Shown: positions 16,856 to 26,200 of the stretch, piece after piece
Position numbering within the stretch: position 1 is the first letter of the stretch
Layout: each line of letters starts with the position of its first letter
NCBI GenBank assembly: GCA_025350905.1
Contig: JANXWY010000139.1
Span: 1 to 45,886, forward strand
DNA length: 45,886 nt
Origin: Verrucomicrobiota bacterium
GTDB taxonomy: Bacteria; Verrucomicrobiota; Verrucomicrobiia; Limisphaerales; JADLHS01
Direction: 5' to 3'
Notes under the pieces: model-generated
Seen by the model: only the letters and a program-made list of their open reading frames with translations
Database searches by the model: none
What the model was told of the DNA's origin: nothing
Program-made: the position numbers and the translations under genes

Positions 16856-17027
16856 TCGCAGGAGCTTCGCATGAGAACTAAAGTCCGTCCGTTCGATTTC
16901 AAGCCGCTCGTCTCGCCGACAGGTCTTGGAGTGCGCCAGCCCTGTGGCGCTTTTCGGGATGCCGCGGCCGGTGACAAAGCGGCGGAGGGCGCTTGCCATC
17001 ACCCACAAGTCGGGACTGCTGTTCGGT

Positions 17028-17256
17028 CAATCCCAACGGGATTGTGTCGTCTAGCCCAGGGTTGGTCCGAGCCGGACTGGCGAGGAGCTACCCTGGGAAA
17101 GGTTGTCGAATGTTTATTCAACCCCAACGGGGTTGTGTCTGTCCGCGGGGCGGGAGGGCTTCAACCCCGTTGGGGTTGGAAGGTTCTGGTCGGGCCTACC
17201 CAGGGTAGCTCGTGCCTCGCAACCCTGGGCTTGGTTACGGAATCCCTTTGGGATTC
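17028..17256. repeat. 229-bp nested quasi-palindrome
   Basis: The element is built of nested inverted repeats around a centre near 17145. From outside in: hairpin CAATCCC-AAC-GGGATTG (17028-17044), which mirrors GAATCCC-TTT-GGGATTC (17240-17256); AGCCCAGGGTTG (17053-17064) with CAACCCTGGGCT (17220-17231); AGCTACCCTGGG (17086-17097) with CCCAGGGTAGCT (17199-17210); and two inner hairpins CAACCCC-AAC-GGGGTTG (17119-17135) and CAACCCC-GTT-GGGGTTG (17162-17178). It lies between the GH2 gene and the DUF4965 gene. Its presence argues that the long upstream reading frame here is not coding. Confidence 0.85.
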
Positions 17257-17344
17257 TTGGATTTCCTCCGTTGGAGCATTGTGGCCGAAAGCAAGCGCGG
17301 GCGGCCGAACTCCACGACGCAACCGCGTTGCCGTTGGCTGCTGC

Positions 17345-20134
17345 ATGATCATTACCGCGGTTCAGTCGGTGCTCACTGCGGCCGGTCAGAATCTCCCGCC
17401 GCTGCGCCCGCCGGCCGTGCCGTTGGTGGCGTGCGACCCGTATTTCAGCATCTGGTCGCCGGCGGACAAGCTGACCGATGCGGACACGGTGCATTGGACG
17501 GGCAAGCCGCACCGGCTCACGAGTATGGTGAAGATTGGCGACAAAGTGTTTCGCCTGATGGGCAAAGAGCCAGCCAACGTGCCCGCGCTCCCGCAAACGA
17601 ATCTCGAAGTACTGCCGACGCGGACGATTTACACGTTCGAAGGTGAAGGCGTGCGGCTGACGCTCACGTTTATGACGCCGGCGTTGCCGGAGGATTTGGC
17701 TCTGCTTTCAGAGCCCGTGACTTATGTGACGTGGGCAACAACCGCACTGGACGGTAAAGAACATCCGATCGGTGTCTATTTTGATTGCGCCGGGGAAATT
17801 ACGGTGAACGAACCCTCACAAGAAGTCTCATACGCTTTCGATGTTTGGTATGGCACCCCGATCCACCGGTTGCAATCGGTTGAGCAGCCGATTCTTCAAA
17901 AAAAGGGTGACGATCTGCGGATTGACTGGGGTGAGTTCCTAGTCAGCGAACCCATCGGATTTCGGGCCACCGAAGTGTTCGTGGGCTCCTTGGAGCAGGC
18001 GCGACGCTGGTTTACAACCGATGACATCATTGAGTCTGACTGGCCTGAACTCAAAACGCCTGATCCGCGATTGGTTTCCAGCGGGATGTATATCAAGCCG
18101 GACTGGAGAATTCCAAGACGCGCGGATGAAGGATTGCCCGGCCTTGCATTGACGTTCACCTGGCAACTGAAAACCGCCGACGGCCGTGATGGCGATTCGC
18201 GAACAATCCTCCTTGGCTACGACGACCGTTACTCCATCCAATACTTCAAAAAGAACTTGGAACCATACTGGAAGAAACAACACGGAAATATTTTCCGGGG
18301 TTCTGGTGGCGATCTCGTCGGGGACGCGGGTCACAATTTTGAGAAACGAAAGAAAATGTGTGCGGCATTTGACTCGGAACTCATGGCGGATTTGCGTCAG
18401 GCCGGCGGCGAGAAATATTCCCGGCTCGCCGCGCTCGCCTATCGCCAGTGTTTCGCCGCCGGCAAATTCGTTGCGGATGCCAACGGCCAGCCGCTCCAGT
18501 TCTGCAAGGAGAACCATTCCAACGGTTGCGTCGGCACGTCGGACGTGTTTTATCCGATGGCGCCGCAGTTCCTGCTGTTCGGGCCGTCGCTGGCCAAATC
18601 GTTCCTAGTGCCGTTCATGAATTACGCGGCGAGCGAGCGTTGGAAATTTCCCTTCGCGCCGCACGACCTCGGCACTTACCCGCACGCCAACGGCCAGGTC
18701 TATGGCGGCGGCGAACGCAACGAGCGCGACCAGATGCCCGTCGAGGAAAGCGGCAATCTGCTCATCCTCATGGCCGCCGTCGCGCAGATGGAAGGTAACG
18801 CCGACTTCGCCGGCCTTTACTGGAAGCAGCTCGAACAATGGGCGGAGTATCTCAAGGCGAAGGGCTTCGATCCCGAGAACCAGCTCTGCACCGACGACTT
18901 TGCCGGCCACTTGGCGCACAACGTGAACCTGAGCGCCAAGGCGATCATCGGCCTCGGCGCGTTCGGTAAGTTGTGCGAATTGCGCGGGCGACCCCTCACC
19001 CCTTCCCTCTCCCCATCGGATGGGGAGAGGGTGGCGAAGCCGGGTGAGGGGAAGGAGTGGATCATAAAAGGCGACGTCTATTCCAAGCTCGCCAAGGAGT
19101 TCGCCGCACGCTGGGTGAAGGAAGCCGCCGACGGCGATCACTACCGGCTGGCGTTCGATCGCCCGGATACGTGGAGTCAGAAATATAATTTGATCTGGGA
19201 TCGCATCCTGGACCTGAATCTTTTCCCCGCCGAAGTCGCGCGCAAGGAAATGGATTTCTACAAAAAGCACCAGAATCAGTACGGCCTGCCGCTGGATAAT
19301 CGGAAGGACTACACCAAGCTCGATTGGATTACCTGGACGGCGACGCTCACGCAAAGCCGGGCGGACTTCGAGGCGTTGATTGATCCAGTCTACGCTTTTT
19401 TAAACGCAACGCCCGATCGCTCGCCGATGACGGATTGGTATGAGACGAAGGATGCGAAGAAAGTCGGCTTCACCGCCCGGCCCGTGGTGGGTGGAGTCTT
19501 TGCGCAGTTGCTTTACGACAAGGCGGTCTGGAAGAGGTGGGCGAGCCGTGACAAAACCAAGGCCGGCAACTGGGCGCCAATCCCGCAGATGCCGAAGATC
19601 ACAGCCGTGGTACCCGCGGCCGACAAACAATCCGCGATCTGGCGTTACACCACCGTCAAGCCAACTGAGGATTGGATGAAATCGGGCTTCAACGATTCGC
19701 CTGGGAGCGCCGGCATCCCTGCCGGCGAATCGGCAACCCTCGCGAAAAGTGCCGGCAAGGATGCCGGCGCTCCCAGGACTTGGAAAGAAGGCAAGAGCGG
19801 CTTCGGTACGGAAGGCACTCCCGGCGCGGTCATCGGCACGACTTGGAACACGCCGGACATCTGGCTGCGGCGCGAGGTCGAAATTCCCGCGGACAAGCTG
19901 AAGAACCTCGAACTGTGGATTCATCACGACGAGGACGCGGAGATTTACATCAATGGCGTCGCCGCCGCGCATCCGCAGGGTTATGTGTCGGATTATTTCA
20001 ATCGGCCGCCGAACGCCGCCGGCCTGGCCGCGCTGAAGCCGGGCAAGAATTTGATCGCCGTTCATTGCCACCAGACCGGCGGCGGCCAATATATTGATGT
20101 GGGCTTTGTGGAAGTTGTGGCGGTGGAGAAGTAG
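17345..20134 (+). CDS. Exported DUF4965/DUF5127 (glutaminase A-like) protein
   Basis: This is a 929-residue protein of the GtaA-type group: an N-terminal DUF5127-like beta-sandwich (about 20-330; LVACDPYFSIWSPADKLTDADTVHWTGKPHRL) and a DUF4965/DUF1793 alpha/alpha barrel (about 350-720; AFDSELMADLRQAGGEKYSRLAALAYRQCFAAGK, APHDLGTYPHANGQVYGG). A C-terminal beta-sandwich follows (about 820-925, LRREVEIPADKLKNLELWIHHDEDAEIYINGV). Some homologues are called glutaminases, and many in glycan loci are uncharacterised. The frame stays open from 16871, but that part is palindromic repeat. The first usable ATG gives a weak signal peptide; a TTG at 17279 would give a better one (RTPRRNR then a hydrophobic run). 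Two palindromic elements are inserted in frame. Confidence 0.82.
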   Translation: MIITAVQSVLTAAGQNLPPLRPPAVPLVACDPYFSIWSPADKLTDADTVHWTGKPHRLTSMVKIGDKVFRLMGKEPANVPALPQTNLEVLPTRTIYTFEGEGVRLTLTFMTPALPEDLALLSEPVTYVTWATTALDGKEHPIGVYFDCAGEITVNEPSQEVSYAFDVWYGTPIHRLQSVEQPILQKKGDDLRIDWGEFLVSEPIGFRATEVFVGSLEQARRWFTTDDIIESDWPELKTPDPRLVSSGMYIKPDWRIPRRADEGLPGLALTFTWQLKTADGRDGDSRTILLGYDDRYSIQYFKKNLEPYWKKQHGNIFRGSGGDLVGDAGHNFEKRKKMCAAFDSELMADLRQAGGEKYSRLAALAYRQCFAAGKFVADANGQPLQFCKENHSNGCVGTSDVFYPMAPQFLLFGPSLAKSFLVPFMNYAASERWKFPFAPHDLGTYPHANGQVYGGGERNERDQMPVEESGNLLILMAAVAQMEGNADFAGLYWKQLEQWAEYLKAKGFDPENQLCTDDFAGHLAHNVNLSAKAIIGLGAFGKLCELRGRPLTPSLSPSDGERVAKPGEGKEWIIKGDVYSKLAKEFAARWVKEAADGDHYRLAFDRPDTWSQKYNLIWDRILDLNLFPAEVARKEMDFYKKHQNQYGLPLDNRKDYTKLDWITWTATLTQSRADFEALIDPVYAFLNATPDRSPMTDWYETKDAKKVGFTARPVVGGVFAQLLYDKAVWKRWASRDKTKAGNWAPIPQMPKITAVVPAADKQSAIWRYTTVKPTEDWMKSGFNDSPGSAGIPAGESATLAKSAGKDAGAPRTWKEGKSGFGTEGTPGAVIGTTWNTPDIWLRREVEIPADKLKNLELWIHHDEDAEIYINGVAAAHPQGYVSDYFNRPPNAAGLAALKPGKNLIAVHCHQTGGGQYIDVGFVEVVAVEK
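18992..19051. repeat. In-frame palindromic element 1 in DUF4965 gene
   Basis: An outer stem CCCCTCACCC (18992-19001) pairs with GGGTGAGGGG (19042-19051). It encloses an inner 13-bp stem CCCTCTCCCCATC (19005-19017) with GATGGGGAGAGGG (19019-19031). It is translated in frame as RPLTPSLSPSDGERV followed by AKPGEG. Elements of the same CCCTCTCCC type lie in the gaps at 20141, 20263, 22084 and 22187. Confidence 0.85.
19701..19776. repeat. In-frame palindromic element 2 in DUF4965 gene
   Basis: A perfect 17-bp inverted repeat, CTGGGAGCGCCGGCATC (19701-19717) and GATGCCGGCGCTCCCAG (19760-19776), bounds a 76-bp element with inner CCTGCCGGC/GCCGGCAAGG pairing. It is translated as PGSAGIPAGESATL and AKSAGKDAGAPR without breaking the frame. 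A single arm of the same element recurs at 24465-24490. Confidence 0.88.
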
Positions 20135-20140
20135 CAAATG

Positions 20141-20181
20141 CCCTCTCCCCGACCCTCTCCCATCCGATGGGCGAGGGAGAA
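20141..20181. repeat. CCCTCTCCC-type palindromic repeat
   Basis: Just after the DUF4965 stop, the arms CCCTCTCCCATC and GATGGGCGAGGG form an imperfect hairpin preceded by a partial CCCTCTCCCC unit. It belongs to the same family as the in-frame element at 18992. Located at the gene end it could also act as a transcript-stabilising 3' hairpin. Confidence 0.7.
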
Positions 20182-20262: not shown

Positions 20263-20295
20263 CCCTCTCCCGTTGGTCGGGGGAGGGTCAGGGTG
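20263..20295. repeat. CCCTCTCCC-type palindromic repeat
   Basis: CCCTCTCCC, a short loop GTTGGT, and CGGGGGAGGG followed by TCAGGGTG form another imperfect hairpin of the family. The trailing TCAGGGTG is shared with the copy at 22187. Confidence 0.65.
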
Positions 20296-22083: not shown

Positions 22084-22106
22084 TCTCTCCCCCGGGGAGA
22101 GGGAGA
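22084..22106. repeat. CCCTCTCCC-type palindromic repeat
   Basis: TCTCTCCCC and GGGGAGAGGGAG form a short palindrome around a CCGG centre in the same gap as the cloverleaf element. It is a reduced member of the family found at 18992, 20141, 20263 and 22187. Confidence 0.6.
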
Positions 22107-22186: not shown

Positions 22187-22211
22187 CCCTCTCCCATTGG
22201 ATGGGAGAGGG
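22187..22211. repeat. CCCTCTCCC-type palindromic repeat, perfect stem
   Basis: CCCTCTCCCAT (22187-22197) pairs perfectly with ATGGGAGAGGG (22201-22211) around TGG and is followed by TCAGGGTGAGGG. It lies about 60 bp upstream of the beta-helix gene at 22273. Confidence 0.8.
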
Positions 22212-24405: not shown

Positions 24406-24464
24406 GCTGAAGAGAACCCGACGGCGCGGGGTCGGCTCGCGGAGCGAAGCGCCGGCTGGCAGCC

Positions 24465-24490
24465 CTGGGAGCGCCGGCATCCTTGCCGGC
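24465..24490. repeat. Half copy of the GGGAGCGCCGGCATC element
   Basis: CTGGGAGCGCCGGCATC followed by CTTGCCGGC is identical over the first 17 bp to the left arm of the in-frame element at 19701, here without its distal arm. It directly precedes the direct repeat at 24491. Confidence 0.8.
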
Positions 24491-24607
24491 AAAAGCCGCA
24501 GCCGCATAGCGAGCCCCGCTGAACTTTGGCCGCGGGTTCGTTCAACCCAGGAATGCAATCAACCCATCGCTGCGCTCCAGGCTAACTGCATTCCTTCAGA
24601 TGTTGGA
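24491..24607. repeat. Direct repeat copy A (117 bp)
   Basis: This stretch is clearly similar along its whole length to 26084-26200. Shared blocks include AAAGCCG, CGAGCCC, ACTTTGGCC, TTCGTT and GGAATGCAATCAA (24550-24562), then GCATTCCTTCAG (24588-24599). GGAATGC and GCATTCC pair in both copies across a variable middle. Copy A overlaps the stop codon of the minus-strand gene at 24596. Confidence 0.8.
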
Positions 24608-26083: not shown

Positions 26084-26200
26084 AAAAGCCGAAGCCGCGT
26101 ATCGAGCCCTGTCTAAACTTTGGCCTCGGATTCGTTGAACCCGGGAATGCAATCAAGCCACCGTTGCCCCTTGGTTAACAGCATTCCTTCAGCTGTTGGG
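26084..26200. repeat. Direct repeat copy B (117 bp)
   Basis: This is the counterpart of 24491-24607 in the same orientation, with the conserved GGAATGC (26144-26150) / GCATTCC (26181-26187) pair and diverged middle. It ends 7 bp before the stop of the minus-strand gene at 26207, just as copy A sits at the stop of the 24596 gene. Confidence 0.8.

Follow-up and report, generated by a model that had tools for sequence, protein, structure and literature searches.

Rickettsia palindromic elements (RPEs), together with the palindromic elements of Wolbachia that stand beside them, form the close known system with which the repeat described here can be compared. In the parts of two sources consulted (PMC10969869, PMC2229807) RPEs are dispersed palindromes, many of which lie in frame in unrelated conserved genes and encode a conserved peptide, with further copies between genes. 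Intragenic REP sequences of the GTAG type were reported by Di Nocera et al. (2013; PMC3733652), and the parts of that paper compared here describe them most of all in Opitutus terrae, list as hosts uvrA and the DNA ligase gene in O. terrae and, in other species, genes for UvrD/Rep helicases, count more than half of the intragenic inserts as dimers or groups encoding 20–30 residues, and note that recB of two Xanthomonas species was struck at about the same site. MITEs such as ERIC and the 107-bp Neisseria (Correia) element are, according to the part of PMC2229807 used, small non-autonomous repeats, some of which have open frames fused to genes.

The window analyzed here is a stretch of 45,886 nucleotides from a bacterium of the order Limisphaerales (Verrucomicrobiota), and it contains a palindromic element, family A, that is read in frame within a GtaA-type gene (Table 1). 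Family A is very probably a short palindromic mobile repeat that works like an RPE or an intragenic REP. It shares with the RPEs of the consulted sources the in-frame insertion in unrelated conserved protein genes; those RPEs, however, are about 105–150 bp long and fall into ten families, whereas family A is mostly 60–63 bp long, forms three hairpins and belongs to another phylum. The ends differ as well, being reported as CGTC for R. conorii RPE sequences (RPE-4 and RPE-6; parts of PMC3733652) and being CCCC/GGGG in family A (CCCCTCACCC/GGGTGAGGGG). The intragenic REPs of O. terrae described in the same parts come from the same phylum as family A, but family A is without the GTAG tag: of 94 copies, two have GTAG or CTAC in the 12 nt on their 5′ side and none has either in the 12 nt on the 3′ side. 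Family A is a different family from the published GTAG REPs. The kind of behavior is already known, in Verrucomicrobiota too, because both RPE behavior and the O. terrae repeats are published, and the original prediction was wrong in supposing that it had not been described in this phylum. As far as the literature searched shows, what is new is family A itself, its scale in Limisphaerales, and the filling of loops by interchangeable palindromes; among the matches listed by a literature search that did not reach most subscription journals, nothing dealt with palindromes of Limisphaerales or Pedosphaera.

Table 1. Palindromic features of the window and their host reading frame (strand "." where none applies).
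Feature	Position	Strand	Description
Host ORF, GtaA-type	16871..20134	+	1087 aa; Pfam PF16334, PF17168, PF16335
Family A palindromic element	18992..19051	+	60 bp, in frame; encodes PLTPSLSPSDGERVAKPGEG
Family A inner hairpin core	19005..19031	.	CCCTCTCCCC-ATCGGAT-GGGGAGAGGG
Family B palindromic insert	19700..19777	+	78 bp, 26 residues; second in-frame insert, interrupts the same ORF
Relative of family A core	20153..20177	.	intergenic
Relative of family A core	20263..20287	.	intergenic
Relative of family A core	22085..22101	.	intergenic, short form
Relative of family A core	22187..22211	.	intergenic
Family B single copy (monomer)	24464..24493	.	intergenic

The element in the GtaA-type gene

The prediction of an in-frame palindrome inside a DUF4965 gene was borne out by an exact 60-bp copy in the region of PF16335 (GtaA_6_Hairpin in Pfam), which we take to be the former DUF4965. 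The outer arms of the element enclose the inner core and a small second hairpin (GGC-GAA-GCC) placed ahead of the closing arm. Its first base is codon position 1 of the host ORF and its product is exactly 20 residues, so that the predicted loop of 20–25 residues was right at the low end; the four copies expected in nearby gaps were recovered as the related cores of Table 1. The suggestion that the insert occupies a helix-helix connection was not confirmed, as an AlphaFold2 model of residues 500–930 with two homologs was discarded for a mean pLDDT of 38.7, and a PDB search with the window protein gave no relative reaching E 0.001.

Homologs were aligned around the insert using 29 loci fetched from the 87 of 116 genomes with a match to the host protein. 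The 20 residues are absent from 27 of them, which have a short stretch such as DKAK in their place; one of these is G011, whose identity (81%) is the highest of any relative. The remaining two, from the same genus (G005) and the same family (G009), carry the identical 20 residues at the homologous place. Both also have the DNA palindrome, sharing 59/60 and 60/60 bases, respectively, with the element of the window; a peptide conserved without the palindrome was not seen. That the insert is an ordinary Pro/Gly-rich loop which looks palindromic by accident would agree with the general knowledge that Pro/Gly/Ser loops are common in linkers, but 60 of 60 bases are common to the GtaA element and a copy in purL (contig C83), the same bases recur in genes that have nothing in common, and intergenic relatives of the element are present in this genome. 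This reading could hold only if the repeated DNA were an artifact, and we give it practically no weight.

A whole-gene tree of GtaA requires two changes for the carriers, which first suggested independent gains. This claim was dropped because, of the 105 sites that unite G000 and the empty G011, 93 are located upstream of the insert by more than 600 nt; the gene looks mosaic when its informative sites are compared along its length. The three carriers (G000 included) have common extra codons 3′ of the element, which the non-carriers in the alignment do not have, and a single insertion inherited by descent is therefore plausible at this locus. For family A at large, vertical descent from an old insertion, retained because its structure as DNA or RNA is useful, would be consistent with these shared codons and with the informative sites between 600 nt upstream of the insert and the gene end, which join G000 with G005 in 23 cases, with G009 in 10 and with the empty G011 in 12. 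The two changes required by the tree count against it, though in a gene that is indicated as mosaic; many relatives have no insert, and from one related species to another a loop may be occupied by palindromes of different families. We regard it as an unlikely general account.

The family B insert of the same ORF is missing in all 28 homologs that cover its place. At the other end of the gene (16871–17340) the first 120–180 residues of the ORF are without counterpart in the aligned homologs, homology starting at about residue 123–181, and the DNA there has several inverted repeats, among them AATCCCAACGGGATT and CAACCCCAACGGGGTTG; the true start may lie further in, or this may be a third insertion.

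Family A across the genome and the order

The genome of the window (6.27 Mb, 489 contigs) was searched with the core pattern CCCTCTCCC N4-14 GGGAGAGGG, which occurs 68 times, compared with 0 times for its reversed form. A DNA search then supplied the 30 best copies of family A as loci; 47 ORFs of at least 170 aa span them, 20 of which were scanned with Pfam in addition to those scanned earlier, and the short gene names used here are our reading of the Pfam matches. At least 16 of these 30 copies are in-frame inserts that either interrupt a conserved domain or separate two domains of a single ORF, and they do so in both orientations: four in sense (GtaA, PurL, an AMP-binding enzyme and KsgA) and 12 in antisense (B12-radical SAM, UvrA, TrpE, two kinases, a histidine kinase, MutS, UvrD, RecN, a pyridine-nucleotide-disulphide oxidoreductase, Dus, where the copy is partial, and LigA). 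Each of the remaining 14 is either intergenic, flanked by a domain on just one side, or undecided.

Across the order the 60-mer was matched at E 0.001 in 165 of 388 genomes, with two candidates scored per genome, and the translated peptide at E 1e-4 in 32 of 388. When a collection of 84,980 genomes was searched with the exact pattern of the 60-nt form, 19 stretches matched; from this collection records near the window's genome were possibly left out; 18 of the 19 are titled Verrucomicrobia, Limisphaerales or Pedosphaera, and 16 lie in frame in a gene recognizable by Pfam or flanking sequence, including a suspected chimera (L146) and a locus with a frame break further upstream (L154). The locus sets overlap because the same species are present in both genome collections. 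Over all loci the recurring hosts are GtaA, PurL, TrpE, MiaB, MnmA, GatB, IspG, MutS, PcrA, GyrB/ParE and kinases; PurL and the hosts named after it have the peptide in frame in other species, and TrpE, MiaB, GatB, IspG, MnmA and PcrA were found as hosts in other families of the order. The kinase copies sit directly after the kinase motif DFG. Five proteins (PurL, TrpE, MnmA, PcrA and MutS) were aligned to solved structures, and in all five the alignment stops or opens a gap where the insert lies. Since most homologs are without the insert, the DNA is dispersed, and the same peptide interrupts many unrelated conserved proteins, the RPE-like behavior that had been proposed is strongly supported.

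Most source genomes look like fragmented metagenome assemblies, in which contigs might have been joined by assemblers at repeats. One probable case was met, in which a family A element marks the point where the front of UvrD passes into the back of IspG (L146 1343–3352, minus strand; probably a misassembly at the repeat), and one contig of G270 starts at the element (L132). In the compiled cases, however, both flanks come from the same gene and are in frame, and family A lies well inside contigs of 729 kb (PurL) and 500 kb (TrpE) in G003, as do other palindromes inside a 239-kb contig of G010. Inserts so far within long contigs argue against an artifact, which we hold to be most improbable as an explanation of the family.

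The 98 distinct full copies gathered by similarity to the 60-mer comprise 41 of 60 nt, 25 of 62 nt, 27 of 63 nt and five others of 59–66 nt, the small hairpin of the 60-nt form being one base pair shorter than that of the 62-nt form. Among DNA-found full copies (two partial ones left out), examined stop to stop in one orientation and found with a query that was itself a 60-nt in-frame copy, an open stretch of at least 300 aa in sense frame 0 occurred in 20 of 22 copies of 60 nt and in 4 of 24 copies of 62 nt (Fisher p = 3e-7). Copies of 60 nt are thus read almost always in a single sense frame; the contrast says nothing beyond that. An interpretation of this contrast as a multiple-of-three filter was set aside as too strong, as several 62-nt copies are antisense in genes here. 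Seven of the 16 bracketed copies of the window's genome are 62 nt long, six of them antisense, and in-gene copies of this length must have gained at least one extra base to keep the frame.

Pairs of copies in the same gene differ in 0–4 of 20 third positions and 0–8 of 60 bases of the element, while third-position identity beside it is mostly 40–80%, with extremes of 38 and 88% computed without the frame-broken left flank of L173. On these comparisons family A is conserved beyond its host genes, which plain neutral descent does not explain; the copies would be either recent, or homogenized, or constrained as DNA. Such unusual conservation would also be in keeping with the inheritance of a useful structure considered above. 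Covariation in the long arms was not above that of shuffles in these similarity-gathered, nearly invariant copies (two-sided changes 3 versus a mean of 0.7 and a maximum of 4, and 2 versus 0.75 and 4), and paired changes were recognized by eye in the small hairpin only (GGCC/GGCC, GTCC/GGAC, GACC/GGTC).

The same loops filled by different palindromes

Six loops (TrpE, B12-radical SAM, UvrA, KsgA, PurL and LigA), picked because family A fills them in the window's genome, were compared at 60 loci, drawn from as many as 11 genomes of the family. Gaps could be read in 59 loci and all 59 are multiples of three, for which reason translational bypass or splicing was dropped as an explanation. The folding test covered 58 loci, leaving out two LigA stretches of 245 aa (G006 and G010), and 39 of these loci have at least 45 nt between the matched flanks. 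A fold z below −2 was obtained for 29 of the 39 long stretches versus 3 of 77 neighboring control windows, and exact inverted arms of at least 8 for 28 versus 2, respectively. Ten of the 39 did not fold unusually, and thus not every long loop is a palindrome. In 12 of the 39 GTAG lies near the start and CTAC near the end, so that repeats like REP dimers fill, in relatives, the loops that hold family A.

The same loops hold different palindromes in different species. The PurL loop is filled in all nine other loci (eight genomes of the family, no PurL match being listed for the remaining three) by several palindrome families. Of 11 TrpE loci, six have a longer stretch, and a short PAPGKEPC stretch is common to five. 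No longer loop was present in 19 of the 30 IspG loci fetched; the other 11 have family A, repeats beginning GTAGGACAGGCG (which are present in the window's genome too, L220), inverted repeats of other kinds, or stretches in which no inverted repeat is obvious. Family A itself was found at the same place in opposite orientations across species in TrpE, in a linker of the B12-radical-SAM protein, and in kinases, compared by place, after DFG. Such swapping of families in one loop is absent from the parts of PMC3733652 compared.

It is conceivable that the palindromes of these loops are exchanged or inverted in place, whether by recombination or by a transposase that works on the palindrome already there, and do not stem from repeated random hits. 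This is compatible with a mobile repeat, since it concerns how the copies arrive, and the filled PurL loops, the opposite orientations and the closer likeness of the elements than of their host genes would all fit it. Against it, the junction sequences differ between species, permissive loops alone would also concentrate the surviving insertions, the loops compared were picked as filled in the window's genome, and neither an enzyme nor an exchange intermediate was seen. We therefore consider exchange in place improbable, and it is to the same degree doubtful that loops of housekeeping enzymes in Limisphaerales are shared sockets in which unrelated palindromic cassettes have been inserted, exchanged and inverted over evolution with the frame preserved, through an active process that targets these sites or the palindromes resident there, beyond random insertion and selection.

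For the mobile repeat that we prefer, a mostly tolerated, near-neutral insertion would be the likeliest mode. On this reading family A has spread through the genome, between and inside genes, and in-gene copies that keep the frame without a stop persist, being read as a loop of 20–21 residues where the enzyme tolerates one; the peptide is presumably translated and flexible. If true, protein-coding palindromes would be a main source of new loops in core enzymes in a whole environmental bacterial order, beyond Rickettsia. With single loops that some species leave empty and others fill with different palindromes, the group would offer natural experiments on the harmless entry of mobile DNA into essential proteins, and on its frequency.

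Two of the compared loops also hold longer stretches. The LigA loop of L326 (G006) and L328 (G010) has about 245 extra residues in frame where the window's genome has family A, possibly an inserted domain. KsgA of G003 (L307), G010 (L304), G004 (L305) and G007 (L306) has 47–91 net extra residues beginning ALTP, with CCCTCACCCC-type repeats at both ends in three of these four relatives (not in G003).

Arrival of the copies and other repeats

Family A has terminal inverted repeats of the MITE type, 10-bp outer arms with standard pairs in 791 of 840 cells, and like ERIC or the Correia element it is a small repeat; a target-site duplication, however, was not found, identical flanks of 3 nt occurring in three of 94 copies with exact ends (1.7 expected) and of 4–9 nt in none. 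Family A and the REP/RAYT system have in common a palindromic form without target duplication seen, but no RAYT was found close to family A, and neither a core nor a half core of it was present in 16 Y1_Tnp loci searched over about 1.5 kb on each side. Family B copies, in contrast, flank and appear within a Y1 transposase ORF on contig C187, a clustering like that of REPs with a RAYT. Because family A is without target duplication and family B is linked to Y1, we infer that copies may arrive by a transposase of the Y1 type that acts in trans on a folded single strand, in a REP/RAYT-like manner.

A Y1 transposase ORF with in-frame family B-like stretches (GAPASLPAS...AAGRDAGAP) was noted in L242 (1027–1869, plus strand). 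Two further repeats of the window deserve mention. A 55-nt direct repeat at 24519–24573 and 26113–26167 is 85% identical between its copies, and at 298–405 two identical 37-nt repeats ending GGATTGAAAC, with starts 71 nt apart, look like the remnant or the end of a CRISPR array.
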